64,000 bases of DNA from Deltaproteobacteria bacterium (lineage in GTDB: Bacteria; Desulfobacterota; Syntrophia; Syntrophales; JAFGHS01), in the NCBI GenBank assembly GCA_016930075.1, contig JAFGHS010000075.1, positions 1 through 64,000 of the forward strand. The letters run 5' to 3'. The position numbers and the translations under genes were made by a program. Positions 4,064 to 45,881 of the stretch are shown here, in pieces (within the stretch, counting starts at the first letter, position 1; each line of letters opens with the position of its first letter). The notes under the pieces are model-generated. The model was not told where the DNA came from. It searched no databases and was given only the letters and a program-made list of their open reading frames with translations.

Positions 4064-7000
4064 GTGCGTGATGAAAATAAAACAAAGGCTCGACTGATCG
4101 ATGAGTTGAATAATTTCCGCCGCAGTTACAGTGACCTGGAGGCAATCCATCAGCAAATGATGGAACGTATGCGGGGATATCGAGATTTCATGGAAAACAT
4201 CGACGATTTATGCTTTGAAACAGATCTTCGTGGCAATACGACATATTGCAATGAGCGCTTTGTTCGCTTACTGGGTTATACCATTGCGGAATTTCAGCAA
4301 CTTACCTTGAGGGAGCGCCACGGATCGGATGCAGAGGCGAAGAAGAATGCCGAGAAATTCACCTTTGTATATCAGATGGGTAAAGCGGGAGAAAGATATG
4401 ACACCGTGCTTTGTCATCGAGATGGAACACTGGTAAACGTTGAGGTATCGGTATCGTTGACCCATGATGAAAAGGGCAATCCTGCCGGATTCAGGGGAAT
4501 TGCCCGGGATGTGACGGAAAGAAAGAAAAACGAGAGAGTCCTTCAGCGCTACAGGGACTTTGTAGAAAATGTAGAGGATGCCTGTTATGAAACGGATTTA
4601 GACGGCCGCTATATTTTTGTAAATGATACGGCCTGCCGTCGTTCAGGATACACGCGTGAGGAGATCCTGCAAGGGGCTTGGACGCTTCAGTCTCACACCG
4701 AATCAGAGGAAGCAAACCGGAAAGCCGTACAAACATACCGGGAAGTGGCCAGAACCGGTGTTCCGGCCAAGATGATTGTTCATGATTTGCTTAGAAAAGA
4801 TGGGACCCGTTACAGTGCTGAAGTGTCCATATCGCCCATTCGTGATGCCGAAGGAAAAACCACGGGCTTCCGGATTATCAGCCGGGACGTTACGGATCGG
4901 ATGAAGCTGGAAAGGGATTTGGAGAGATACAAAGAATTTGTCGAAAACGTCGATGACGGTTGTTTTGAGGTTGATTTAAACGGAAGATACCTGATTGTCA
5001 ATGATGCCATGTGCCGCCGTTCCGGATACACTCGAGAGGAAATGCTGGCAATAGATCCCACCACTCTTTATGCGAACAATGAAGATCGCAGGCGTGTCCG
5101 TCGGGTTTTCGTTGAGCTTTATAATACAGGTGTTCCCCAAAATATTGCATATCCCTATATCAGAAAGGATGGAACGGTACGTCATGTTGAAAACTCTTTA
5201 ACCTTGATGCGTAACGCAAAGGATGAGCCTGTCGGCTTTCGGGTGATCAGCCGGGATATCACGGAGCGGTTACAGATGGAACGGGAGCAGGAGCGATACC
5301 GCAATTTTCTTGAAAATATCGATGAGATTTGCTGGGAAAATGATCTTAAGGGCAGACTGACATTCGGCAATGAAAAGGCTCTCAAGCGGTTCAGGTTTGA
5401 CAGTGATCCGGCGCTCAAGCAGTATGGGTCTACGAAGGAAGAGCAGCTCAAAGCGAAAGTAAGTTACCGTAAGTATTTAAGGCCGGAAAATATTGAGAGA
5501 TATAATAAAGTCTATTCCGACGTCTATACGTCGGGAAAGTCTAAAATATTGTATAATGTGCCGGTGTCACGCCCGGATGGCGGGCATGATTATCATGATT
5601 TGACGATATCGCTGATTCGCGACGAAGAGGGTAAACCCACTGGTTTCCGGACGATTGCACGGGATATCACTGAGCGTCACAAAATGGAGCAGGAGCAGGA
5701 GCGATACCGCAATTTCCTCGACAACATAGATGAATATTGTTTTGAAAGCGATCTCAACGGCAACCTGATATTTGCCAATGAAAAAGCGCTCAAAATGTTT
5801 GGTTTGACCCGGGAGCAGGTGCAGCAAGGGGAAATCAACTACCGGACTGCTCTTGCACCGCAAAGAGCCGAAAAATATTATCAAATTTTTTTGAATGTTT
5901 ATCAGACGGGGAATCCTGCCGTATTATACGATTTTGAAGTCACGCTTCCGGGAGGCGAGCGGCGATATCTGGATATGGGTATGTCGCTGATCCGTAGCGA
6001 GGAGGGCAAAACCGCCGGTTTTCGGATGATTGCACGGAATGTGACCCAGCGAAAATTGATGGAAGACGAACAGGAAAAATTAAAAGAAAAGCTCATTCAG
6101 TCGGAAAAACTGGAATCCATCGGCACTTTGGCCGGGGGTATCGCCCATGATTTCAACAATCTTTTGATGGGGATTCAGGGCTACACATCGCTCATGCTCA
6201 TGGATATCGACGCAGCTCATCCCTTTTACGAACGATTGAAGATGATCGAATCCCAGGTGAAAAGCGGCGCCGATCTAACCAAGCAGTTATTGGGCTATGC
6301 CCGGGGCGGCCGATATGAGATGAAGGTTACAGATATAAATGACCTCATCAAGAAAACAGCCTTCATGTTCGGCAGAACCAAAAAGGATATTCGAATCCAT
6401 CAAAACTATGCCGACGGACTTTGGAATATTGAAGCGGACGAGGGGCAGATGGAGCAGGTTCTGTTAAATCTCTTTCTGAACGCCTCTGAAGCGATGCCCG
6501 GAGGTGGCGCCATTTATTTGCAGACGGAAAATGTTGTGTTGGATGAGCCGTATGTCAAACCCCATGATGTCGAGGCCGGTCGATATGTCAAGATATCCGT
6601 GACCGATACGGGTGTCGGGATGGATGAGAGAACAAGACTGCGGATTTTCGAGCCTTTTTATACGACAAAAGATATGGGCAAAGGCGCCGGTCTGGGTCTT
6701 GCCAGCGCATACGGCATCATTAAGGGACATAAAGGCATCATCAACTGTTATAGCGAAAAAGGCCATGGCACGACCTTCAACATCTACCTTCCGGCGACCC
6801 TGGGACGTGTTGTGAAAGGATTGGAGGAAACGGCTGTTGCGGCGGTTGATAGAAAAGTAAGCATATTACTGGTTGATGATGAAAAGACGGTCACGGATGT
6901 CACAAGCGTTATGCTTGAGAAGCTGGGGCACCAGGTTTTGGTTGCCCACGGGGGTGAGGAGTCCGTTGAGATTTACCGGATGAAACACGGTGAGATTGAC

Positions 7001-7225
7001 CTTGTTATTATGGATATGACCATGCCGGAAATGAGCGGCGGCGAGGCCATTGCAAAAATAAAGTCGATCAATCCCGATGCAAGGATTCTCCTTTCCAGCG
7101 GTTACAGCATCAACGGTATGGCCAGGGAAATTATGAATCGTGACGGGGTGCAGGGGTTTATACAAAAACCGTTTCGGATGGATCAACTGGCGAGCAAAAT
7201 CAATGAAGTTATGACGGATTCGTAA
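4064..7225 (+). CDS. Hybrid sensor histidine kinase with five PAS domains
   Basis: This is a 1053-residue cytoplasmic sensor kinase with no membrane segment or signal peptide. Five PAS units follow one another at about 39-155, 165-280, 287-400, 411-540 and 549-675. Each opens with a version of YR-D/N-F-x-E-N-x-D/E and ends with R-D-V/I-T-E/D-R. A HisKA domain follows with the H-box AGGIAHDFNN (about 690-699), then an HATPase domain (N-box NLFLNASEAM, G-boxes DTGVGM and GKGAGLGLAS), and a C-terminal receiver domain (about 932-1050) with the phospho-acceptor Asp at residue 984 in VIMDMTMPEMSG. It starts at GTG after agagaggtg. No partner regulator lies beside it, so the output is not deducible. 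Genes with this repeated PAS build are common in anaerobic deltaproteobacteria. Confidence 0.93.
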   Translation: MRDENKTKARLIDELNNFRRSYSDLEAIHQQMMERMRGYRDFMENIDDLCFETDLRGNTTYCNERFVRLLGYTIAEFQQLTLRERHGSDAEAKKNAEKFTFVYQMGKAGERYDTVLCHRDGTLVNVEVSVSLTHDEKGNPAGFRGIARDVTERKKNERVLQRYRDFVENVEDACYETDLDGRYIFVNDTACRRSGYTREEILQGAWTLQSHTESEEANRKAVQTYREVARTGVPAKMIVHDLLRKDGTRYSAEVSISPIRDAEGKTTGFRIISRDVTDRMKLERDLERYKEFVENVDDGCFEVDLNGRYLIVNDAMCRRSGYTREEMLAIDPTTLYANNEDRRRVRRVFVELYNTGVPQNIAYPYIRKDGTVRHVENSLTLMRNAKDEPVGFRVISRDITERLQMEREQERYRNFLENIDEICWENDLKGRLTFGNEKALKRFRFDSDPALKQYGSTKEEQLKAKVSYRKYLRPENIERYNKVYSDVYTSGKSKILYNVPVSRPDGGHDYHDLTISLIRDEEGKPTGFRTIARDITERHKMEQEQERYRNFLDNIDEYCFESDLNGNLIFANEKALKMFGLTREQVQQGEINYRTALAPQRAEKYYQIFLNVYQTGNPAVLYDFEVTLPGGERRYLDMGMSLIRSEEGKTAGFRMIARNVTQRKLMEDEQEKLKEKLIQSEKLESIGTLAGGIAHDFNNLLMGIQGYTSLMLMDIDAAHPFYERLKMIESQVKSGADLTKQLLGYARGGRYEMKVTDINDLIKKTAFMFGRTKKDIRIHQNYADGLWNIEADEGQMEQVLLNLFLNASEAMPGGGAIYLQTENVVLDEPYVKPHDVEAGRYVKISVTDTGVGMDERTRLRIFEPFYTTKDMGKGAGLGLASAYGIIKGHKGIINCYSEKGHGTTFNIYLPATLGRVVKGLEETAVAAVDRKVSILLVDDEKTVTDVTSVMLEKLGHQVLVAHGGEESVEIYRMKHGEIDLVIMDMTMPEMSGGEAIAKIKSINPDARILLSSGYSINGMAREIMNRDGVQGFIQKPFRMDQLASKINEVMTDS

Positions 7226-7346
7226 AAGCCGGGCTGATGGATCTACATAAATACGTATGGTGGCTGTTCCATAGAAATTCGACTTTATTTTTCCGGATAC
7301 ATGCATTACAGTAAGGGCAAATAAAAAAAGCAAAGAGGAGGCAATT

Positions 7347-7781
7347 ATGAGTTATGTCAGGGATGTTCTCGCTGCGAAAGATAACAAGATTCAGTCCATT
7401 TCCCCTAATGCAACGGTATTCGAAGCTTTGAAGCAGATGAGTGAAAAGGAAATCGGTGCGCTGGTGGTCATGGAGAACAAGAAAATTGTCGGCATCATTT
7501 CGGAACGCGATTATGCCAGAAAAATCATCCTCCAGGGAAAAACCTCCAAAGAAACCAAGGTCAAGGAAGTCATGTCCACTCAGTTATTTTCCGTTACCCC
7601 TGATAACAGCTTGGAAGAAACCATGGTGTTGATGACGGGGAAACACGTAAGGCATCTTCCGGTTTTTGAGAATAATAAATTTATCGGGATTCTTTCTATC
7701 GGCGACGTTTTAAAATCGATCATTTCGAATAAAGATTTTCTTATTGATCAGTTGAGCAGCTATATTTCCGGTAAATATTAG
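7347..7781 (+). CDS. CBS-domain pair protein
   Basis: This 144-residue soluble protein consists of two CBS motifs (a Bateman module). The first runs from about residue 8 to 65 with [21 protein letters not shown], and the second from about 78 to 130 with [23 protein letters not shown] pairs bind adenosine nucleotides (AMP, ATP, SAM) and act as energy or ligand sensors. Stand-alone pairs like this often regulate an enzyme in trans, but the partner is not evident. An excellent ribosome-binding site (aaagaggaggca) precedes the ATG. It is flanked downstream by a strong hairpin, so it is probably a single-gene unit. Confidence 0.88.
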
Positions 7782-7815
7782 GAATAAAACAACCATCCCT
7801 TAAATCCTTTTTCAC

Positions 7816-7848
7816 TTCAGGGGTTCGCCGATTCTGCGAACCCCTGAA
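7816..7848. terminator. Perfect 13-bp hairpin between the CBS gene and the CoA-transferase gene
   Basis: The arms ttcaggggttcgc (7816-7828) and gcgaacccctgaa (7836-7848) are exact inverted repeats around a 7-nt loop. The position right after the CBS gene suggests a terminator. However, neither side has a clear T-run, so it may work inefficiently or act as a transcript-end stabiliser. Confidence 0.6.
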
Positions 7849-7951
7849 CATCCGTACAGGCATGGGACGACTGTCAAAGACCATCCGGATAGATTTGTTC
7901 GATCAACCTATAAAAAAATCCAACAGGTCATGGGAGCATAAAAAAGATAAA

Positions 7952-9292
7952 ATGAGAACAGCCATATGGGACCAATACAGAAACAAGATAAGAACAGAGC
8001 GGGAAGCGGTAAAGGCTGTCAAATCGGGGGATTGGGTGTATTACAGCCATTTTGTCATGACGCCGGTGACTTTGGACAAAGCCCTTGCCGAACGAAAGGA
8101 CGTATTAAGGGATGTTAAAATCAGCGTTTCCAACGGCATGCACCCGGTCCAGGTCGCGGCATGCGATCCGGAGGGGAAAGCGTTTACATATCACAGTACG
8201 TTTTACAGCGCGAGCGACAGAAATTTCGGCAAGCATGGCGCGGCCTTTTTTATCCCCGCCAACTATCATGAGCAGCCCTGGCGCCTGCGTCAGGGGTTTG
8301 CGCCCCGGCCCAATGTGGCCATGATCAAGACGACGTCCATGGATAAAAACGGCCTGTTTAATTTCGGCACGTCCTGTTCCTATGCCAAGGCCATAACGGA
8401 AATGGCGGATATTGTCATTGTGGAAACCAATGAAGGGGTTCCCAAATGTCTCGGGGGTCACAGTGAAAATATCCATATCTCCGACGTTGATTATATTGTT
8501 GAAGCGCCAAAAGCGCCGCTTTTGGCTACGCCTAAACCCCGGGTTTCGCCGGAGGATGAAAAAATCGCTCAGTATATCCTTGAAGAGATTCATGATGGTG
8601 CGTGCCTCCAACTGGGCATCGGCGGTATTCCCAATGCCGTGGGCAGCCTCATTGCCGAATCGGATCTTAAGGACCTCGGCATGCACAGCGAAATGATGTG
8701 CGACGCCTTTATGGACCTTTATGACAGGGGCAAAATCACAGGGCGTTACAAATATACCAATAAAAATAAAATGGTCTATACCTTCGCCATGGGGACTGCC
8801 GACCTCTATGAATTCGTGGACGACAATCCGGTTTGCGCCACCTTTCCGGTTGATTATACAAACAGTGCCGAAAATATCTCCCGAAACGAAAATGTCGTCA
8901 GCATCAATAATGCCGTGCAAGTCGATCTGTACGGCCAGATCGCCTCTGAAGCCATCGACGACAAACAGATATCCGGGTCGGGCGGACAGGGCGACTTTGT
9001 CGTCGGGGCGGCAAAGTCCCGGGGCGGCATGGCCTTCATCTGTCTCAAATCTACCCGTGAAATAGGGGGCCGTGTTGTTTCCCGCATTGTTCCGGATGTC
9101 GAGGGCATCGTGTCTGTACCGCGGGCCTGGGCGTTTTATGTGGTCACGGAATACGGCAAGGTCTGTCTTAAAGGTAAAACCACATGGCAAATCGCGGAAT
9201 CTTTAATATCCATAGCCCATCCGGATTTTCGGGAAGATTTGATCAAGGCAGCCCAAGCGAAAGGTATTTGGCGGAGAAGCAACAGAATTTAA
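7952..9292 (+). CDS. Acetyl-CoA hydrolase/CoA-transferase family protein (Cat1/But-like)
   Basis: This is a cytoplasmic class I CoA-transferase of the acetyl-CoA hydrolase/transferase family, which moves CoA between acyl-CoA and acetate, succinate or a similar acid. The family's catalytic Glu is in HSEMMCDAF (about residue 247 from this start), and the glycine-rich CoA-site loops are present ([18 protein letters not shown]). The reading frame is open from 7862 (476 residues). I chose the ATG at 7952 (446 residues) because related enzymes are about 440-450 residues and begin with a segment like [16 protein letters not shown]. The 7862 start has almost no spacing from its only AGG. Substrate cannot be told from sequence. 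Its stop overlaps the convergent methyltransferase gene. Confidence 0.85.
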
Positions 9293-21169: not shown

Positions 21170-22000
21170 GTGAATCCTCATACAAAGCAGCCTATTTCAC
21201 CGATGTCTTTATTCGGCAATCTTTGGCATAACCGAAGCCTCATGGCCGTTCTGGTGAAGCGGGAAATTATCGGGCGTTACAAAGGATCTGTTCTGGGACT
21301 GTTGTGGTCTTTCCTTAACCCGTTGCTTATGCTCGTTATTTACACGTTTGTGTTCTCCGTGATTTTCAAGTCCCGCTGGAGCATTAATGTCGATGAGCCT
21401 AAAACGCAGTTTGCCATCGTGCTGTTTGTGGGCATGATTGTCCACGGCCTTTTTGCCGATGTGATCAACCGCGCACCGCTGTTGATTACATCCAATGTCA
21501 ATTATGTTAAGAAAGTCGTTTTCCCCCTTGATATTCTGCCTTCCGTTACCATCGGCGCGGCCCTGTTTCACAGCCTTGTGAGTCTCGTTGTCCTCTTGGT
21601 TGCCTTTGTCATATTTAACAGTTATCTCAACTGGACTGCAATATTCATTCCTCTGGTGCTGCTGCCGCTCATCATTCTTACTCACGGCATTGCCTTGATG
21701 CTCGCGTCTCTGGGGGTGTTTTTCCGCGATCTGGGACAAACAACAGGCATTATTACCATGATCATGCTGTTTTACGCCCCTATATTTTACCCCGTGACGG
21801 CCTTGCCCGCGCCCTTTCGTCCCTGGATCATGGCCAATCCGCTGACCTTCATTATCGAACAGGCGCGCGATGTTCTCATCTGGGGGCGTCTGCCCGATTG
21901 GACAGGCTTGGGCCTGTACACGCTGGTGGCTCTGGGCGTGGCCTGGGCAGGCTATGCCTGGTTCCAGAAGACGAGAAAGGGTTTTGCCGATGTCCTCTAA
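21170..22000 (+). CDS. wzm: O-antigen ABC transporter permease Wzm
   Basis: Wzm is the inner-membrane permease of the ABC pathway that exports polymerised O-antigen from cytoplasm to periplasm. The 276-residue protein has an amphipathic cytoplasmic N-terminus containing VKREIIGRYKGSVLGLLWSFLNPLL (residues about 25-49), the ABC-2 signature. About six membrane segments follow, and the last loop is of the FYPVTALPAPFRPWIMANPLTFIIE type. The start is GTG at 21170 after gagagaggttgg. Its end overlaps the wzt start by 11 bases, so the two proteins are translationally coupled. Confidence 0.93.
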   Translation: MNPHTKQPISPMSLFGNLWHNRSLMAVLVKREIIGRYKGSVLGLLWSFLNPLLMLVIYTFVFSVIFKSRWSINVDEPKTQFAIVLFVGMIVHGLFADVINRAPLLITSNVNYVKKVVFPLDILPSVTIGAALFHSLVSLVVLLVAFVIFNSYLNWTAIFIPLVLLPLIILTHGIALMLASLGVFFRDLGQTTGIITMIMLFYAPIFYPVTALPAPFRPWIMANPLTFIIEQARDVLIWGRLPDWTGLGLYTLVALGVAWAGYAWFQKTRKGFADVL

Positions 22001-23390
22001 CATCATTGATCAGGTACCCGGTCCCCTTACGGATGATGTTTTATCTGTGGGAGAATCCATAGACGATGTGGCGATACGGGTCCGCAATCTGGGCAAGTGT
22101 TACCAAATTTATAATAAACCCAACGATCGGCTCAAGGCATCCATCTATCCCCGCCTGCAACGGCTGATCGGGCGGCAGCCCGGTCAATACTTTCGGGAGT
22201 TCTGGGCGCTTTCGGACGTTTCTTTTGACGTCAAAAAAGGTGAGACCCTCGGCATTATCGGCAGCAACGGTTCGGGAAAATCCACGCTGCTGCAAATGGT
22301 TTGCGGGACGCTTCACCCGACCTGCGGCAACATTCAAACCAACGGACGCATTGCTGCCCTTCTGGAACTGGGTTCCGGATTCAACCCCGATTTTACCGGT
22401 CGTGAAAATGTGTACATGAATGCCTCATTGCTGGGGTTAAGCACGGATGAAATCGACGATCGCTTTGATAAGATCGCTTCCTTTGCCGGCATCGGCGAGT
22501 TTATGGGGCAGCCGGTCAAGACGTATTCCAGCGGAATGTTTGTTCGTCTGGCATTTTCCGTCATCGCCCATGTCGATGCGGACATCCTGGTGGTTGATGA
22601 AGCGCTGGCCGTAGGCGATGCCGTGTTCACACAGAAATGCATGCGCTTTATACGTGATTTTCAGACCAGAGGCACCTTGCTTTTCGTCAGTCACGATATG
22701 GGAGCCGTCCGCAGCCTCTGCAAATCCTGCATCTGGCTTAAACATGGCCGAGTTGAACAGGCCGGCGCATCAAAAAACATCACGGAGGCTTATTTTCAGT
22801 TTACGACGCAGGAAATATATGGGGACCAGACCGTATTGACGTCATTGGCGCCTGCCGGAGAAGAGGAAACGTCTCCCCATGTCATCGATTATGGCGCTGT
22901 TGTTTCCATACAAGATAACCTGGAGGCGGCCAAAGGATGGAAAACCGGCAGGGCCGATGTCCTGTCCGTTTCGCTTACGCGTCTTTCGCCGGGACCGGAC
23001 GGCGTCTTTGAAGGCGGTGATCGTGTTTGCCTGACCGTACGGGCCAAAGCCCATGATGCACTGAAAAACCCGATTCTCGGTTTTCTGGTGCGCGACCGGT
23101 TGGGTCAGGATTTATTCGGCGAAAATACCCTGTCGTTTACAAAGCTGGCGCCGGCGTCGATTGAGGCAGGCATGATGTTCGAGGGCATTTTTGTGTTCCG
23201 ATTGCCCATGCTGCCGAACGGACAATATGCCGTCATGGCGTCCGTCGCGGATGGAGATCTTTTCAACAATATACAGCATCACTGGATGCACGACGCGCTC
23301 ATCATCAATGTTTCGTCAAGCAAAGTTCGATATGGACTCATGGGCATGACATTCGAACGCATAGAACTTGGAGTTATCCATGACCCGTAA
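21990..23390 (+). CDS. wzt: O-antigen ABC transporter ATPase Wzt with C-terminal extension
   Basis: This 466-residue ATPase partners Wzm. The nucleotide-binding domain spans about residues 20-260. It has Walker A GSNGSGKSTL (about 91-100), the signature YSSGMFVRLAFS (about 176-187), Walker B ILVVDEALAVGD (about 199-210) and the His-loop in VSHDMG. The extra C-terminal part (about 300-466) is beta-rich, with VLSVSLTRL, GDRVCLTVRAKA, ILGFLVRDRLGQ and GQYAVMASVADGD. It matches the carbohydrate-binding domain by which long Wzt proteins recognise a modified chain end before export. I chose ATG 21990, which has aaaggg eight bases upstream and overlaps wzm; the frame is open from 21870. Its stop overlaps the next start. 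Confidence 0.92.
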   Translation: MSSNIIDQVPGPLTDDVLSVGESIDDVAIRVRNLGKCYQIYNKPNDRLKASIYPRLQRLIGRQPGQYFREFWALSDVSFDVKKGETLGIIGSNGSGKSTLLQMVCGTLHPTCGNIQTNGRIAALLELGSGFNPDFTGRENVYMNASLLGLSTDEIDDRFDKIASFAGIGEFMGQPVKTYSSGMFVRLAFSVIAHVDADILVVDEALAVGDAVFTQKCMRFIRDFQTRGTLLFVSHDMGAVRSLCKSCIWLKHGRVEQAGASKNITEAYFQFTTQEIYGDQTVLTSLAPAGEEETSPHVIDYGAVVSIQDNLEAAKGWKTGRADVLSVSLTRLSPGPDGVFEGGDRVCLTVRAKAHDALKNPILGFLVRDRLGQDLFGENTLSFTKLAPASIEAGMMFEGIFVFRLPMLPNGQYAVMASVADGDLFNNIQHHWMHDALIINVSSSKVRYGLMGMTFERIELGVIHDP

Positions 23391-36072: not shown

Positions 36073-37404
36073 ATGCCTGAAGAAGTGTCGCCCAAAGTCG
36101 CCGTTCAGATTCCTGCATGGAACCAGGCGGAAGAATTGGTAGATTGCCTCAATAGCCTCAAAGAAGTCGACTATAAGAATTTGGAAGTGGTTGTTGTCAA
36201 CAACGGCGAGGACAATACATCGGAAATTGTCAGAAGGGATTTCCCATGGGTTACCTTAATTGAAGACGGCATCGATCTGGGGTTTTGCAGGGCCAACAAT
36301 ATTGGATTCCGGTATTGTCTGGAAAAACAGGTTGACTACATTTTGCTGCTGAACGGAGATACGAAGGTTTTCCCGGACACTATTTCCACGCTTCTGAAAG
36401 TCATGCAGGGCGACCCGTCCATCGCCATCGCCGGCGCAAAAAATCTCTTGATGGAAAACCCGCATTATACGTGGGGGAAATATGGCGAAGTGAAGTGGAG
36501 CCCCATGCTTGTTACGACGGCAGGCAGATTTGAACCGGATTCGACACAAAAGCAGCCTCCCAGCGATGTTGACTGGGTCATCTGCAACGGATGCTTGATC
36601 CGGGCCCATGTTCTGGAAAAAATAGGGCTTTTTGATGAGGATTACTGGATGTGCAATGAGGATGTCGAATGGTCCTACCGTGCAAGAGAAAACGGCTATC
36701 GTACGGTATATGTTGACGAGGCGGCCATTCTGCACAAGGGGAGTTCCAGCACAAATTTGAAAAACAAAAAGAAGGTATTTTCCTACGGTTATTTCCTCGG
36801 CAGAAATCCCTTTATCTTTGCAAGAAAATACGGGAAAAAACATCAGATCGTGAGGCTTTTTTTCAATGTCTACCTCGGCATGTTTATTCGCATACTCTGC
36901 CAGTTATATAAGCTTACAGAGGCAACGATAACGGAAATATACAGATCCGTCCGCGGCATTACTATCGCATATATCCGGAATATACATCCGGTGCTTGCAT
37001 CTGAGAAGGTTATCTCCAAAGGAGTCAAACGCGGCATGAAGGGGGTAAATTCGCCGGAATTCCTATATATGGAAATGCCGCATTCCCCGCAGCCCCCGGT
37101 CTCAACACCGGCAGCAGCCCCGTTGATCTTAAGAGACGGCGGTCCTTTAAAAACAAAAGCAAATACGGTTTTTAATGAACAACCGGATGGAAGTGCGGCC
37201 ATGTGGCTTATTGCGGAAAATGCCGGTGAACGCACGCAGGTCAAGTTTGGCGGCAAAAAAATAAAACCCATAGTTCATAATTCTCAAACACTGACATTAC
37301 GGGTTCCAAGAAAACTTTATTCCAAACCCGGACTTTATGAAATTCATATATTTAATCCTCAGGAAGGTGAAAAATCCAACAGTTTATTTTTTACGGTTGA
37401 TTGA
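36073..37404 (+). CDS. GT2 glycosyltransferase with C-terminal IPT/TIG-like domain
   Basis: This 443-residue protein has a GT2 core at about 1-240: KVAVQIPAWNQAEELVDCL, the VVNNGEDNTS and ILLLNGDTKVF motifs, FDEDYWMCNEDVEWSYRAREN. A hydrophobic linker lies at about 255-300. The last 95 residues (349-443) form an all-beta module ending in LYSKPGLYEIHIFNPQEG...SNSLFFTV, the pattern of IPT/TIG immunoglobulin-like domains. That module is about three quarters identical by eye to the mature lipoprotein at 38758. A paralogue without it follows 11 bases downstream. Its start follows aaggaat. It probably elongates the glycan; the Ig-like part may bind sugar or an envelope partner. Confidence 0.82.
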   Translation: MPEEVSPKVAVQIPAWNQAEELVDCLNSLKEVDYKNLEVVVVNNGEDNTSEIVRRDFPWVTLIEDGIDLGFCRANNIGFRYCLEKQVDYILLLNGDTKVFPDTISTLLKVMQGDPSIAIAGAKNLLMENPHYTWGKYGEVKWSPMLVTTAGRFEPDSTQKQPPSDVDWVICNGCLIRAHVLEKIGLFDEDYWMCNEDVEWSYRARENGYRTVYVDEAAILHKGSSSTNLKNKKKVFSYGYFLGRNPFIFARKYGKKHQIVRLFFNVYLGMFIRILCQLYKLTEATITEIYRSVRGITIAYIRNIHPVLASEKVISKGVKRGMKGVNSPEFLYMEMPHSPQPPVSTPAAAPLILRDGGPLKTKANTVFNEQPDGSAAMWLIAENAGERTQVKFGGKKIKPIVHNSQTLTLRVPRKLYSKPGLYEIHIFNPQEGEKSNSLFFTVD

Positions 37405-37415
37405 TATAACTCCCC

Positions 37416-38522
37416 ATGTCCGAAGAACTGTTTCCTAAAATTGCCGTTCAGATTCCTGCATGGAATCAGGCGGAAGAATTGATAGACTGTCTCAACAGCC
37501 TCAAAGAAGTCCGATACGAAAATCTGGAGGTGATTGTTGTCGGCAGCGGTGCGGACCATGCATCAGAAATTGTGAAAAGGGATTTCCCATGGGTTACTTT
37601 GATTGAAGAAGGCGCTGATCCGGCTTTTTGCAAGGCCAATCATATTGGATTCCGTTATTGTCTTGAAAAAAAGATGGACTACGTTTTACTGCTCAATGGA
37701 GATACAAAGGTTTTTCCGGACACCATTTCCACGCTTCTTACAGTCATGCGGGGCGATCCTTCCATCGCCATTGCCGGTGCAAAAAATATTTTAATGGAAA
37801 ATCCGGATTATCTTTGGGGAGCCTGCGGTGAGGCTAAGTGCAGCCCGCTTATGGTTGTGACGGCAGGGCGATTTGAGCGGGACGAAAAACAAAAGCATCC
37901 GCCCAAAGATGTTGACTGGATCATCTGCAACGGATGCCTTATCCGGGCGGATGTTCTTGAAAAGATCGGGCTCTTTGATGAAGAGGGTCGGATGAGCAAT
38001 GAGGATGCCGAATGGTCCTGCCGTGCAAAAGAACACGGGTATCGCACGGTATATGCGGATGAGGCGGCCGTTCTCCGCAAGGGGAGCTCCCGTGCTCATT
38101 TGACAAACAGGGGAAAGGCGTTTCCCGGCGGTTATTTTATCGGCAGAAATCCCATCCTGTTTGCGAAAAAAAGCGGGAAAAAACATCAGGTCATAAAACT
38201 GTTTTTCATGGTTTACGCCGGCCTGTTTATCCGGGTTTTTTACCAGGTATGTCAACTCACAACGGCAATGATCCTGGAAATATTCCGATCCGTCGGCAGC
38301 ATTATTATGGCATATATCCGGAATATATATCCGGCGCTGGCATCTCAAAAGGTTATCCACAGCGGGGTCAAGGATGGAATCAGAGGTGTCATTTCGCCGG
38401 AATTGATATACATAGAAATTCCCGAATCTGCGCAGCCCCCGGCATCAAAACCGGTCAAAGTTTCATTGCCCACATTCGAACAGGGCAGAAGAGTCAAATT
38501 AATGCGCTGGCTCGGATATTAA
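37416..38522 (+). CDS. GT2 glycosyltransferase, paralogue of the 36073 gene lacking the IPT domain
   Basis: This 368-residue paralogue of the gene just upstream matches it along almost the whole GT2 core and linker: KIAVQIPAWNQAEELIDCL, VLLLNGDTKVFPDTIS, CNGCLIRADVLEKIGLFDEE. The segment corresponding to YWMCNEDVEW reads GRMSNEDAEW. It parts from its sister at the Pro-rich hinge (QPPASKP) and then ends after a short unrelated tail, so the Ig-like domain is missing. Both probably act on the same glycan, either with different specificity or as a recent duplicate being altered. Confidence 0.82.
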   Translation: MSEELFPKIAVQIPAWNQAEELIDCLNSLKEVRYENLEVIVVGSGADHASEIVKRDFPWVTLIEEGADPAFCKANHIGFRYCLEKKMDYVLLLNGDTKVFPDTISTLLTVMRGDPSIAIAGAKNILMENPDYLWGACGEAKCSPLMVVTAGRFERDEKQKHPPKDVDWIICNGCLIRADVLEKIGLFDEEGRMSNEDAEWSCRAKEHGYRTVYADEAAVLRKGSSRAHLTNRGKAFPGGYFIGRNPILFAKKSGKKHQVIKLFFMVYAGLFIRVFYQVCQLTTAMILEIFRSVGSIIMAYIRNIYPALASQKVIHSGVKDGIRGVISPELIYIEIPESAQPPASKPVKVSLPTFEQGRRVKLMRWLGY

Positions 38523-38757: not shown

Positions 38758-39120
38758 ATGAAAGAAAGAAAGATTATTTTTATTCTTGCCGTGATGATTT
38801 TACACTTATGTTTTTTGGGTTGTAGCGACGACAAGCCCTTGGTTCTCAAGGAAGGTGGTCCTTTAAAGACGAAAGCAAATACGGTTTTTAACGTACAGCC
38901 TGACGGAAGTGCGGCCATGTGGCTCATTGTGGAAAATGCGAGTGAACGAACACACGTCATGTTCGATAAAAAAGAAATAAGGCCGGTTTTTCATAATTCC
39001 CAAAAACTGACCTTAACTGTCCCAAGGGAACTTTATTCCAAACCAGGAAGGTACGAAATATATATTTTTAATCCTCAAAATGATAATAGATCGAACAGTT
39101 TGTTTTTTACGGTTGAATAA
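38758..39120 (+). CDS. Lipoprotein made of an IPT/TIG-like domain
   Basis: This 120-residue product has a lipoprotein signal: MKERKIIFILAVMILHLCFLGC, with the lipobox LGC and the acylated Cys at residue 22, followed by SDD. Asp at +3 and Ser at +2 leave the final location uncertain. The mature part, from about residue 26, matches the last 95 residues of the GT2 protein at 36073, with shared blocks such as GGPLKTKANTVFN and QPDGSAAMWLI. It ends at the same point. A ggagga site precedes the ATG. The gene sits between two near-identical foldback elements. No enzyme motif is present; a binding role in the envelope is likely. Confidence 0.8.
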   Translation: MKERKIIFILAVMILHLCFLGCSDDKPLVLKEGGPLKTKANTVFNVQPDGSAAMWLIVENASERTHVMFDKKEIRPVFHNSQKLTLTVPRELYSKPGRYEIYIFNPQNDNRSNSLFFTVE

Positions 39121-39372: not shown

Positions 39373-42336
39373 ATGAATAGAGTAAATGGCATGTGGCAAT
39401 ATTTTGATCACGAATTTGAGTATGAAGACGCGTATCGAGATTTTTATTCGCCGTGGGCGGGACATAAATATTTTTCATATGATTTAGTCCGAAACATAAG
39501 GCCGAAAATAATTGTCGAATTGGGTACGTACAGGGGCACGTCCTTTTTTTCATTCTGCCAGGCGGTAAAAGATGCGTGTCACGATGCAAATCTGTATGCC
39601 GTAGATACATGGCAGGGCGATGAACATGGAGGTTTTTATGATGAGGACGTTTATACCGACGTCATAAAGATAAAAGAAAAATACTACGCTGATTTAAAAA
39701 TAAATCTGCTGCGAAAGCGATTTGACGAAGCGGTTGATGAATTTGACAATCATTCGATTGATTTGTTGCATATCGACGGATTGCACACCTATGAGGCCGT
39801 AAAGCATGATTTTGAAAAATGGCTGCCGAAGGTCAAACCGGACGGCATCATTCTCTTGCATGATATTTATATAAACAAAGAGGATTTCGGGGTTCATCAA
39901 TTCTGGGAAGAACTTAAAGGCCAATACAAGACCGTCGAGTTTCATCATTCTTATGGGTTGGGGGTTTTGTTTAAAGACGGCACGCATTATCAATCATTCA
40001 TTGACAGCCAAAAAGAATGGCAGATCAGATATTCGTATATCGCGGAAGATAAGAAAAACGAGAAAATACATAAGTCTCTCACGAGCTCGGAGAGATTGTT
40101 GACCAAGCATGAGAGGCAGATTTCCGGTCTTCGCCAGATCATCTCGGAACAGGACGATAAGCTTGCCGTCCGGGACGGCAATATTGCCCGCCTAAACGAC
40201 GTCCTGTCGGAGCGGGACGGACAGATTGCCACCCTCAATGGGGCTGTGTCGGCGTGCGACAGACATATCGCCGTCCTCAATGAGGGCTTGTCGGAGCGGG
40301 ACGGCAATATTGCCCGCTTAAACGACGTCCTGTCGGAGCGCGACGGGGAGGTCGCCGCCCTCAACCGGACCGTGTCGGTGTGCGACGAACAGATCGCCGT
40401 TCTCAACGAGGCCCTGTCGGGACGGATTGCCGATCTCAACCGGGCCGCGACAGAGCGGGATGGCGCCCTCGCCTTGATCGACCTGATGAAGGGCAGCACC
40501 TCCTGGCGGCTGACTCGTCCCATGCGGTTTTTGGCCCGCCTGGTTCGATATGGTCTGATAGACGACGATCGCCGCAATCTATCACATCGGTTTCATTATC
40601 GATACCATCAACTGCCCCTGCCGGTTTCCGTCAAGAATTTTATCGGCATTTTCCGTCAAAAAAAGATGGCGGTGCAAATGGAAAAGGCCGGCGCCTTTGC
40701 AATCCATGCACGAAATGCCCTGCGTTATGTCGGCCGAAGGGACTTTGATGGTCTGAAAAAGCGCATCCATTTTTATCAAGCCGATCAATTCATACAGAAA
40801 TTGGCTGTCCTGGGTCCGCCCAAACGGTGGGGCGTCATTGCGACTCCGCATACGTTGTTTGTCGCCCATCTTGTTGCCTCGCGCCTCCGTGCGCATAACT
40901 TTGAGGTCGACATCATGACAAATCCGCCCGCCGGTTTTCCCCATGACATGTATGTCGTTATTTGTGCGCAAATGCTGGATGTTTTGCCGCCCGGCGAGAA
41001 GCGCATTGTCTATCAGATGGAGCAGTCCGTCAGTTCCCGCTGGTTCACGGACGCCTACATTAAAATACTGGAATGCTCGCTGGCCGTGTTGGAATACTCC
41101 CTGGTCAATGTGGCATTCATGGCCGGCAAGGGCGTGATGTATCCGCATGTCCACTACCTGCCGGTTGGGGCCGGCACGGGTTATATGGATCACCTTCCGC
41201 CGGTTGAAAAAACCTGTGATGTCCTGTTCTACGGAGATGCCAACAGTTCGCCGCGCCGCCGCGAGATGCTCAATGTCCTGCGGCGGCACTTCAATGTGCG
41301 TATGTGCAGTGAGATCTTCGACATGGACATGGTCAACGAGATTCGCCGCGCCCGCACGGTGATCAATCTGCACTATTATAAAAATGCGCTGCTCGAGATG
41401 CCCCGCATTCAGGAATGCCTGTCCCTCGGCGTTCCCGTCATAACCGAGACGGCGCAGGATCAGGCCGACTACCCGGATCTCACAGGGGCTGTGATTTTTT
41501 TCGAAGAGGGGAACGAACAGGCCATGATCGAAGCGGTGCGGAGGGCTTTACACCACCCTGTCGAACCTGAAACCATACGTCAAGCTGTTGCCGCCGGTGC
41601 CGGACGTTTTGCTTTCATGTTCGACCGTTTCCTCGTGGCCATGGGTTTCCTGCCGGCAAGCAAGCTTGCGGATGACGTTTTGCCGCTGCCGCAGGGCGCA
41701 TCGCACATTGTTCTTTCCATGCCGGAGACGATTGCGCGCCGCCGTCTTTTTGAGGCCAATTGTCCCCAATGCTTTGCCGTCTTCGATGGTATACGATTGC
41801 GTCCGGGCTGGGTGGGTTGCGGTCTGTCCTATGCGAAACTTGCGGGTTATGCGCTCAGCCAGGGCATGCACCGGCTGACGATTCTTGAAGACGATGCCCT
41901 GCTGCCTGAGGATTTCGAGGGAAAAATGCGCATTATCCACGCCTATCTTGATGCAAAAGAGGGTCAATGGGATGTCTTTGCAGGCCTCATTACGACCCTG
42001 CATTCTGAAGTGAAGGTCCTTGGCGCCGAAATGTTTCAAGGCATGCTTTTTGTCACCATCGATAAAATGACCGGCATGGTCTGCAATGTTTACAGTGAAA
42101 AAGTGCTGCGCATTCTTGCGTCATGGGATCCCGATCATCGCGATGATCAGACCAACACCATCGACAAATATTTGGAACGGCAGACCGACCTGCGTATTGT
42201 GGTGACTCTGCCGTTTTTGGCCGGACACAGGGAAGAGGTGCATTCCACGCTTTGGGGTTTCCAGAATACGCAGTACCGTGAACTGATAGCGGAGAGTGAA
42301 CGCACGCTGCAAGAGTCCGCCGGGGCATTTCTCTAA
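39373..42336 (+). CDS. Multi-enzyme fusion: methyltransferase, coiled-coil repeats, GT-B-like and GT25-like domains
   Basis: This 987-residue cytoplasmic protein has four parts. The N-terminal Methyltransf_24-like domain (about 1-210) has IVELGTYRGTSF, AVDTWQGD, LLHIDGLHTYEAV and LLHDIY. A coiled-coil zone (about 235-365) contains two 42-residue repeats at 267-350. A GT-B/CgeB-like domain (about 480-730) has DVLFYGDANSSPRR and RIQECLSLGVPVITE. The C-terminal GT25-like domain (about 755-970) has GCGLSYAKLAGYAL and the catalytic LTILEDDALLPEDF. A short motif, STSWRLTRPMR (about 374-384), sits after the repeats and also occurs in the protein at 23380. The start is ATG 39373 with only a weak ribosome-binding site. 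Confidence 0.8.
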   Translation: MNRVNGMWQYFDHEFEYEDAYRDFYSPWAGHKYFSYDLVRNIRPKIIVELGTYRGTSFFSFCQAVKDACHDANLYAVDTWQGDEHGGFYDEDVYTDVIKIKEKYYADLKINLLRKRFDEAVDEFDNHSIDLLHIDGLHTYEAVKHDFEKWLPKVKPDGIILLHDIYINKEDFGVHQFWEELKGQYKTVEFHHSYGLGVLFKDGTHYQSFIDSQKEWQIRYSYIAEDKKNEKIHKSLTSSERLLTKHERQISGLRQIISEQDDKLAVRDGNIARLNDVLSERDGQIATLNGAVSACDRHIAVLNEGLSERDGNIARLNDVLSERDGEVAALNRTVSVCDEQIAVLNEALSGRIADLNRAATERDGALALIDLMKGSTSWRLTRPMRFLARLVRYGLIDDDRRNLSHRFHYRYHQLPLPVSVKNFIGIFRQKKMAVQMEKAGAFAIHARNALRYVGRRDFDGLKKRIHFYQADQFIQKLAVLGPPKRWGVIATPHTLFVAHLVASRLRAHNFEVDIMTNPPAGFPHDMYVVICAQMLDVLPPGEKRIVYQMEQSVSSRWFTDAYIKILECSLAVLEYSLVNVAFMAGKGVMYPHVHYLPVGAGTGYMDHLPPVEKTCDVLFYGDANSSPRRREMLNVLRRHFNVRMCSEIFDMDMVNEIRRARTVINLHYYKNALLEMPRIQECLSLGVPVITETAQDQADYPDLTGAVIFFEEGNEQAMIEAVRRALHHPVEPETIRQAVAAGAGRFAFMFDRFLVAMGFLPASKLADDVLPLPQGASHIVLSMPETIARRRLFEANCPQCFAVFDGIRLRPGWVGCGLSYAKLAGYALSQGMHRLTILEDDALLPEDFEGKMRIIHAYLDAKEGQWDVFAGLITTLHSEVKVLGAEMFQGMLFVTIDKMTGMVCNVYSEKVLRILASWDPDHRDDQTNTIDKYLERQTDLRIVVTLPFLAGHREEVHSTLWGFQNTQYRELIAESERTLQESAGAFL
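40171..40422 (+). repeat. Two in-frame 126-bp tandem repeats in the fusion gene
   Basis: Units 40171-40296 and 40297-40422 each encode 42 residues made of three 14-residue steps, such as RDGNIARLNDVLSE and CDRHIAVLNEGLSE. The DNA of the first 42 bases of each unit is nearly identical, so the duplication is fairly recent. The heptad-like pattern of I, L and V predicts coiled coil. Confidence 0.85.
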
Positions 42337-45320: not shown

Positions 45321-45881
45321 ATGAAGAGAATCTTTGATATTGCTGCGGCCCTTGCGGCTCTTTGCATATTTTTCGTCCCCATGCTTTTTTTGTCCCTCCT
45401 GATAAAATGTACATCCCAAGGTCCCGTCATTTACTGGTCTGACAGGATCGGCAGAAATAACGGGATGTTCAGAATGCTCAAATTCCGCACCATGCGCATC
45501 GATACGCCGGCTATGGCCACGCATCTTATGCGCAATCCTGATGACTATCTGACGCCCCTGGGGAAATTTCTGCGCAAGTCGAGTCTTGATGAACTGCCGC
45601 AGCTTTTCAATGTTCTTGCGGGGAATATGAGTCTGGTCGGCCCGCGCCCCGCCTTATACAACCAGGAAGATCTGATCGCGCTCAGGACGCAAAAAGGAAT
45701 CCATAAACTGCTTCCCGGCATTACCGGTTGGGCGCAAATCAATGGAAGAGACGAACTTTCGATTCCCGTCAAGGTGGCCCATGATGAATATTATCTCAAT
45801 CATCGGTCTTTCGGTTTTGATTTAATGATATTATGGAAAACGGTGATCAACGTCGTGAAAAAAGAAGGCGTAGCGCATTAA
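45321..45881 (+). CDS. Initiating sugar-phosphate transferase (monotopic PGT, PglC-like)
   Basis: This 186-residue bacterial sugar transferase moves a sugar-1-phosphate onto undecaprenyl phosphate, the first step of a lipid-linked glycan. It has one N-terminal reentrant hydrophobic helix (about 6-30), the [17 protein letters not shown] segment (about 42-58), the acidic catalytic pair within [13 protein letters not shown] (about 87-99) and the [14 protein letters not shown] motif (about 102-115). [15 protein letters not shown] is also typical. It is the small catalytic form, not the five-helix WbaP form. The ribosome-binding site lies inside a foldback repeat, so expression may be controlled by RNA structure. 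Confidence 0.9.

Follow-up and report, generated by a model that had tools for sequence, protein, structure and literature searches.

A candidate polymerase-terminator fusion for ABC-transporter-dependent O-polysaccharide, with a tandem-repeat coiled coil that varies in length among its relatives

We analysed a window of 64,000 nucleotides from a Deltaproteobacteria bacterium of the order Syntrophales and identified a gene, P0001, whose product is probably a fused chain polymerase and terminator for an ABC-transporter-dependent O-polysaccharide, in which a coiled coil would act as a resizable ruler. The closest known kind of protein is the coiled-coil chain terminator or polymerase of ABC-transporter O-antigen pathways, as represented by WbdD, WbbB and Klebsiella O7 ORF6. 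Because both the architecture of P0001 and its locus, with Wzm and a Wzt_C-bearing Wzt, resemble those of coiled-coil terminators and polymerases, the repeats in its linker most probably form, by analogy, a ruler of chain length at whose far end a methyl cap is added.

The initial annotation had described a 987-residue reading frame with a methyltransferase, repeats, a GT-B-like and a GT25-like domain, and this architecture was confirmed by the open frame and by the agreement of Pfam with fold comparison (Table 1). The nearest solved structure to the methyltransferase, by both sequence and fold, was MeT1 of Mycobacterium hassiacum, which is a sugar O-methyltransferase (PMC9883506). Within the GT-B-like part, Glyco_trans_1_2 was matched above the Pfam cut-off at residues 641-738 (E 1.7e-6). 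The Glyco_transf_25 match at residues 809-854 scored 16.6 bits, below the cut-off of 24 bits, while the same family was matched above the cut-off in two relatives, L027 and L137 (25.7 and 26.5 bits). An E-D-D triplet at residues 839-841 (41887-41895) was invariant in 7/7 aligned relatives. Since confidence in the full-length AF2 model (mean pLDDT 51) did not suffice for the glycosyltransferase domains, residues 766-987 were modelled alone (pLDDT 70, pTM 0.73), and structure comparison matched this model to bacterial beta-1,4-galactosyltransferases and human GLT25D1/COLGALT1. The matches in relatives, the invariant triplet and the fold together indicate that the weak Glyco_transf_25 match is genuine and that this part is a GT25 member as judged by sequence and model. 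P0001 is thus predicted to carry two putative polymerising glycosyltransferase modules C-terminal to the coil. No kinase family was found in P0001, whose methyltransferase and coil are joined by a short loop, and for want of a kinase the protein falls outside the WbdD family proper, defined as methyltransferase-kinase. Two reading frames that overlap the gene on the opposite strand (39990-40577 and 40582-41373) were taken as frame shadows.

Table 1. Positions of P0001, its parts and other genes of the locus in the window; G122 is a Syntrophaceae MAG with a relative of P0001
Feature	Position	Strand	Basis or remark
Whole gene P0001: methyltransferase, coiled coil, amphipathic helix, GT-B, GT25	39373..42336	+	987 aa, ORF intact
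Methyltransf_24 domain, residues 48-165	39514..39867	+	Pfam, E 9e-27
Predicted long helix / coiled coil, residues 206-373	39988..40491	+	AF2 helix, low confidence
Tandem array, two 126-bp sets of three 42-bp units each	40171..40422	+	Tandem Repeats Finder, translation
Conserved amphipathic helix SWRLTRPMRFLARLVRYG, residues 377-394	40501..40554	+	Hydrophobic moment, conservation
GT-B-like domain, approximate, ~residues 485-760	40825..41652	+	Glyco_trans_1_2 match
GT25-like domain, residues 766-987	41668..42333	+	Pfam in relatives, fold, E-D-D
Wzm-type ABC-2 permease (ABC2_membrane)	21170..22000	+	82% identical to G122 copy
Wzt ATPase with C-terminal cap-binding domain Wzt_C	21987..23390	+	Wzt_C E 5e-27
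P0003, two methyltransferase domains, short coil, SWKMTRPLR helix	23368..25128	+	Directly 3' of wzt
GT2 glycosyltransferase adjoining P0001	42409..43305	+	Also adjoins the P0001 relative in G122, 66% identical
Bac_transf initiating sugar transferase	45321-45881		Same locus

We then consider the linker. AF2 placed residues 206-373 in a single helix, followed by a second helix at residues 378-392 (low confidence). Clear heptads start at about residue 241 and run to residue 372, and the power of the 3.5-residue periodicity in the linker was matched by 0/2000 shuffles. A coiled coil, whose absence, together with a constant repeat number, the initial annotation had regarded as fatal to its idea that repeat number could alter the spacing of the active sites, is thus predicted by heptad periodicity and by the modelled helix. 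If fully helical, residues 241-372 would span about 20 nm (0.15 nm per residue, our own arithmetic), and the WbdD coil keeps its enzymes about 20 nm off the membrane (PMC5082667). By sequence and model, a candidate terminating-type enzyme therefore lies N-terminal to an extended coil, at what would be its distal end.

Tandem Repeats Finder reported the array as 126 bp x 2.0 at 40171-40420, as well as with a shorter period, 42 bp x 4-5.5. Its translation consists of six 14-residue units grouped 3+3 (example unit RDGNIARLNDVLSE), each equal to two heptads, so the two 42-residue repeats described earlier exist as the 126-bp copies but are themselves built of a shorter basic unit. The two 126-bp copies are identical at 105/126 positions, with dS about 0.39-0.65. 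Compared pairwise, units 1 and 4 share 41/42 bases, units 2 and 5 share 31/42 and units 3 and 6 share 33/42; the remaining unit pairs have 25-30 bases in common. This pattern of unit identities suggests that the 42-bp duplication is the older process and the 126-bp duplication the younger one, which, with the exception of units 1 and 4, does not appear to be very recent. The recent DNA origin proposed for the repeats accordingly holds for that one pair and not for the array overall. No further copies of the repeat, as possible recombination donors, were found in the same genome at E 0.01, and the predicted RNA structure of the array was nothing special (z -0.99).

The helix at residues 377-394 underlies the top 6/969 windows by hydrophobic moment and carries a net charge of +5. 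Most of the relatives examined have its SWRLT motif behind the coil too, whichever enzyme comes next. In WbdD, an amphipathic membrane helix likewise lies C-terminal to the coil (PMC11231755). In a further protein of G122 (L020, ~5900-9228), an FkbM-like methyltransferase and a GT4-like part precede a C-terminal coil that shares the RDGQI-type unit and has an SWKMTLPLR helix, so that the coil-helix module also occurs at protein C-termini. The earlier reading, partly supported by our results, had overlooked this helix, as well as the probable terminator role of the methyltransferase and the exchange of that module described below.

By their sequence, the genes around P0001 form an ABC-transporter-type locus for O-polysaccharide. 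It encodes Wzm and a Wzt with a cap-recognising C-terminal domain (the Wzt start is uncertain; its ORF opens at 21870), and the same layout is seen in relatives. Export in this pathway is restricted to terminated chains, and the terminal group is recognised by a module of Wzt (PMC11231755). The window also holds several glycosyltransferases and sugar-nucleotide genes, and beyond the Bac_transf gene lie heptosyltransferases (GT9 core genes), LpxK, an MsbA-like transporter and LpxB. The analogy to O-antigen rulers, drawn in the initial annotation, is strengthened by this setting of Wzm, Wzt with Wzt_C, and lipid A and core genes. P0003, whose coil is short and of seven-residue repeats, may be a second chain terminator of the locus, possibly the terminator itself. 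Several other genes of the window were recorded alongside. In P0002 (25147-28074, +), a NanM-like sugar O-methyltransferase is fused to a Methyltransf_24 and to a GT2-like domain, and the P0002 relative in G122 (L015) starts at the Methyltransf_24 part, without the first methyltransferase. Two tandem GT2 genes lie at 36073-37404 and 37416-38522 (+), and the first has a TIG-like domain at its end. A 120-aa orphan at 38758-39120 (+) has a lipoprotein-like signal and a body that is a near-repeat of the TIG-like domain of that first GT2 gene, which places two copies of this domain side by side, one cytoplasmic and one probably exported.

A scan of genome contigs with P0001 alone returned no relative, and with a two-row alignment as the query 187 were obtained. 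Five full-length relatives were identified: in the Syntrophaceae MAG G122 (L028), in Methylococcales (L026 and L027), in a Pseudomonadota MAG (L029) and on a Comamonas plasmid (L136), all encoded on the downstream side of Wzm/Wzt, either immediately next to them or no more than 3.4 kb away. The glycosyltransferase half of the window protein is 62% identical to that of G122 and 57-58% to those of Methylococcales. A search of the order, class and phylum for relatives of this half found G122 only; the half is therefore rare in its phylum. No other strain of the window species with the gene was found, and the same-genus genome G001 is without it.

Among the window protein and its five relatives, the length change is almost confined to the linker. 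The methyltransferase ends at about residue 197-204 where the start is clear, and the stretch from the SWRLT helix to the C-terminus measures 589-613 aa (CV 1.3%). The linkers measure 64, 131, 145, 159, 176 and 218 aa (CV 34%), so the constant repeat number that had been named in advance as contrary to the ruler proposal is not what the relatives have. DNA tandem arrays were detected at the linker in 4/6, with units unlike one another: 126 bp in the window, 21 bp x 5.0 in L026, 42 bp x 2.8 in L027 and 168 bp x 2.0 in L029. Between L026 and L027 the difference in the coil amounts to exactly 14 residues, and these two proteins also differ by a seven-residue gap in the post-helix loop and at the C-terminal end. 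G122, with a 64-aa linker, has almost no coil and no significant heptad signal and keeps every enzyme, which argues that a long ruler is not obligatory. On a Pseudochrobactrum plasmid (L137, 1595-4204), the GT-B/GT25 half stands alone, methyltransferase and coil being absent, and the neighbouring Wzt is without Wzt_C. This apparent single natural co-loss of methyltransferase, coil and cap reader fits a terminator role for the methyltransferase.

The methyltransferase appears to have a history of its own. That of P0001 groups with a Smithella protein (66% identity) in a separate, fully supported clade, and forcing it to join G122 and Methylococcales was rejected (AU p 6.7e-5). The best single GC3 change point falls at residue 235, about the start of the coil, with GC3 of 0.44 before and 0.65 after. 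The separate ancestry and the change point together indicate, from sequence, that the terminator module of P0001 was replaced via a joint at or near the coil start.

Methyltransf_24, the coil and the SWRLT helix were found joined to many different C-terminal parts. Tandem arrays were present in 22/43 linkers of this class and in 1/43 matched controls, which were equal stretches just downstream of the linkers. The best periods in 19 of the 22 array-bearing linkers were multiples of 21 bp, and the other three were multiples of 3. A Wzt-like ATPase lay upstream at 35/50 long-tailed Methyltransf_24 loci and at 0/11 stand-alone ones (Fisher 1.8e-5, a value inflated by relatedness because the stand-alone controls are mostly Bacillota); the other 15/50 long-tailed loci had no Wzt within 6 kb upstream. 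The coil of a Chlorobiaceae relative (L042) carries an exact 117-bp (39-aa) duplication with a 100% match, which is not a multiple of seven residues. Genes matching this Methyltransf_24, some of them annotated as glycosyltransferase, were also seen in cyanophages and mycobacteriophages (H67-H76).

The count of coil lengths across strains that the initial annotation had called for was carried out on a class member found on E. coli/Enterobacter plasmids and some chromosomes, in an ABC-exporter polysaccharide locus (L141-L149), where it is annotated as a class I SAM-dependent methyltransferase. The count yielded seven lengths among nine sequences: 482, 506, 535, 546, 553, 578 and 583 aa. In 9/9, the methyltransferase part is exactly 216 aa and the tail exactly 118 aa, and all gaps fall within the coil; alleles of 816, 880 and 912 aa are carried by natural E. 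coli isolates. Where two sequences differ by 43 or 96 residues, the rest of their coils is 99.8% identical. The indels of 25, 32, 43 and 96 aa lack exact heptad quantisation, so the 21-bp rule covers most arrays but not every indel. The ATPase of these loci is short and without a Wzt_C-sized tail; since the clearest length alleles sit beside it, cap reading is not universal. Another class member (L138) was represented by four near-identical copies on enterobacterial plasmids, which showed no length difference, and had no E. coli match.

Compared by description, P0001 resembles the terminator-polymerase ORF6 of Klebsiella pneumoniae O7, a single chain which has an N-terminal methyltransferase, a central coil and two C-terminal glycosyltransferase modules and lies beside Wzm/Wzt (PMC11231755). 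Both modules of ORF6 are GT2, and a kinase and a CBM domain come in addition, whereas P0001 has no kinase and its modules are GT-B-like and GT25-like. In P0001, as in WbdD of E. coli O9a/O8, the coil has the methyltransferase at its distal end and leads into an amphipathic, putatively membrane-proximal helix, and both pathways use an ABC transporter with a cap-reading Wzt domain. The O8 form of WbdD is methyl-only, and a methyl-only terminator is enough in E. coli O8 (PMC3482155). Unlike P0001, with its fused glycosyltransferases, WbdD recruits a separate polymerase, WbdA, and the O9a form has a kinase; no WbdD chain was among the PDB sequence matches of P0001. With WbbB of Klebsiella O12, P0001 shares the union of terminator, coil and two polymerising glycosyltransferases in a single polypeptide, but WbbB terminates by beta-Kdo via a glycosyltransferase rather than by methylation, and its families are GT99/102/103. 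In ORF6 and WbbB, the terminator always occupies the distal coil end (PMC11231755). The enterobacterial proteins L141-L149 resemble P0001 in methyltransferase family, coil, helix (SWKLTAPVR) and ABC polysaccharide exporter, whereas a 118-aa tail replaces the glycosyltransferase domains and the ATPase lacks a Wzt_C-sized tail.

On these grounds we propose the following model for P0001. The GT-B and GT25 domains would extend a lipid-linked chain at the inner membrane, where the amphipathic helix would anchor them, and the coil would keep the methyltransferase off the membrane. Owing to this spacing, only chains long enough to reach the methyltransferase would be methylated at the non-reducing end. 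Methylation would end growth, and the C-terminal domain of Wzt would read the methyl cap for export. Gain or loss of whole tandem units would then resize the ruler in frame and shift the chain length. Insertions and truncations in the WbdD coil change the modal chain length (PMC5082667), and the WbbB coil has been reported as a ruler (PMC11231755). By analogy with the WbdD experiments (PMC5082667, PMC11231755), chain length may likewise change with repeat number in P0001.

The methyltransferase might instead decorate residues inside the chain, with the coil merely holding together a multi-enzyme assembly and P0003 as the real terminator. P0003 would suit this role, since it lies directly 3' of wzt and carries two methyltransferase domains in tandem, a coil and the helix motif found in P0001, and in G122 a second methyltransferase-bearing protein ending in a coil lies between Wzt and the P0001 relative. 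However, in Comamonas and the Pseudomonadota MAG it is the P0001 relative itself that directly follows Wzt (Wzt_C was shown for Comamonas), the Comamonas stretch analysed has no other methyltransferase annotated, and the Pseudochrobactrum co-loss fits the methyltransferase as terminator. We therefore consider internal decoration unlikely.

Two other explanations concern the length of the coil itself. One holds that the coil serves as a stalk for dimerisation or trimerisation whose length is irrelevant, in which units come and go by near-neutral slippage and any in-frame coil is tolerated. The linker varies widely in length with no pattern to be seen, and in G122 the coil is nearly gone, which would agree with this, as would those E. 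coli indels that are not multiples of seven; yet in the WbdD/WbbB class coil length is not neutral, given the altered chain length of WbdD coil variants (PMC5082667) and the reported WbbB ruler (PMC11231755), and we regard a length-indifferent stalk as rather improbable. It has also to be asked whether P0001 is a contingency locus, in which slippage, or recombination between the 126-bp copies, would frequently change the repeat number inside one clone and render the surface phase-variable. Frame keeping is perfect, units 126 bp apart are nearly identical, and the E. coli plasmids do carry length alleles in otherwise almost unchanged coils. Against this, slippage in the P0001 array should be slow because there are just two sets and the copies are only 83% identical, and the L138 gene did not change in length on its four plasmids; frequent switching thus seems quite improbable. 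A chain-length ruler that carries the capping methyltransferase remains our preferred reading of P0001.

For the setting and evolution of the characteristic chain length of O-antigens, the ruler model has so far been based on WbdD and WbbB with a small number of engineered coil lengths. Because the relatives of P0001 and the E. coli plasmid genes vary in the coil alone, the ruler hypothesis becomes testable on natural variants, and in-frame tandem heptad duplication may be a simple genetic route to a new surface sugar length. In the searchable part of the literature, citing papers included, tandem-repeat rulers were not described. Most interesting to us is the general pattern of tandem-repeat ruler resizing combined with enzyme exchange at its end. 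We put forward tentatively, as a possibility for the whole class, that the rulers of ABC-dependent polysaccharides may be tandem-repeat loci in many phyla, in which arrays in whole heptads (21n bp) would resize the ruler while the enzyme ends stay fixed, and in which the coil would serve as a joint for terminator exchange. If this were true, chain length and cap chemistry could evolve independently of the polymerase.
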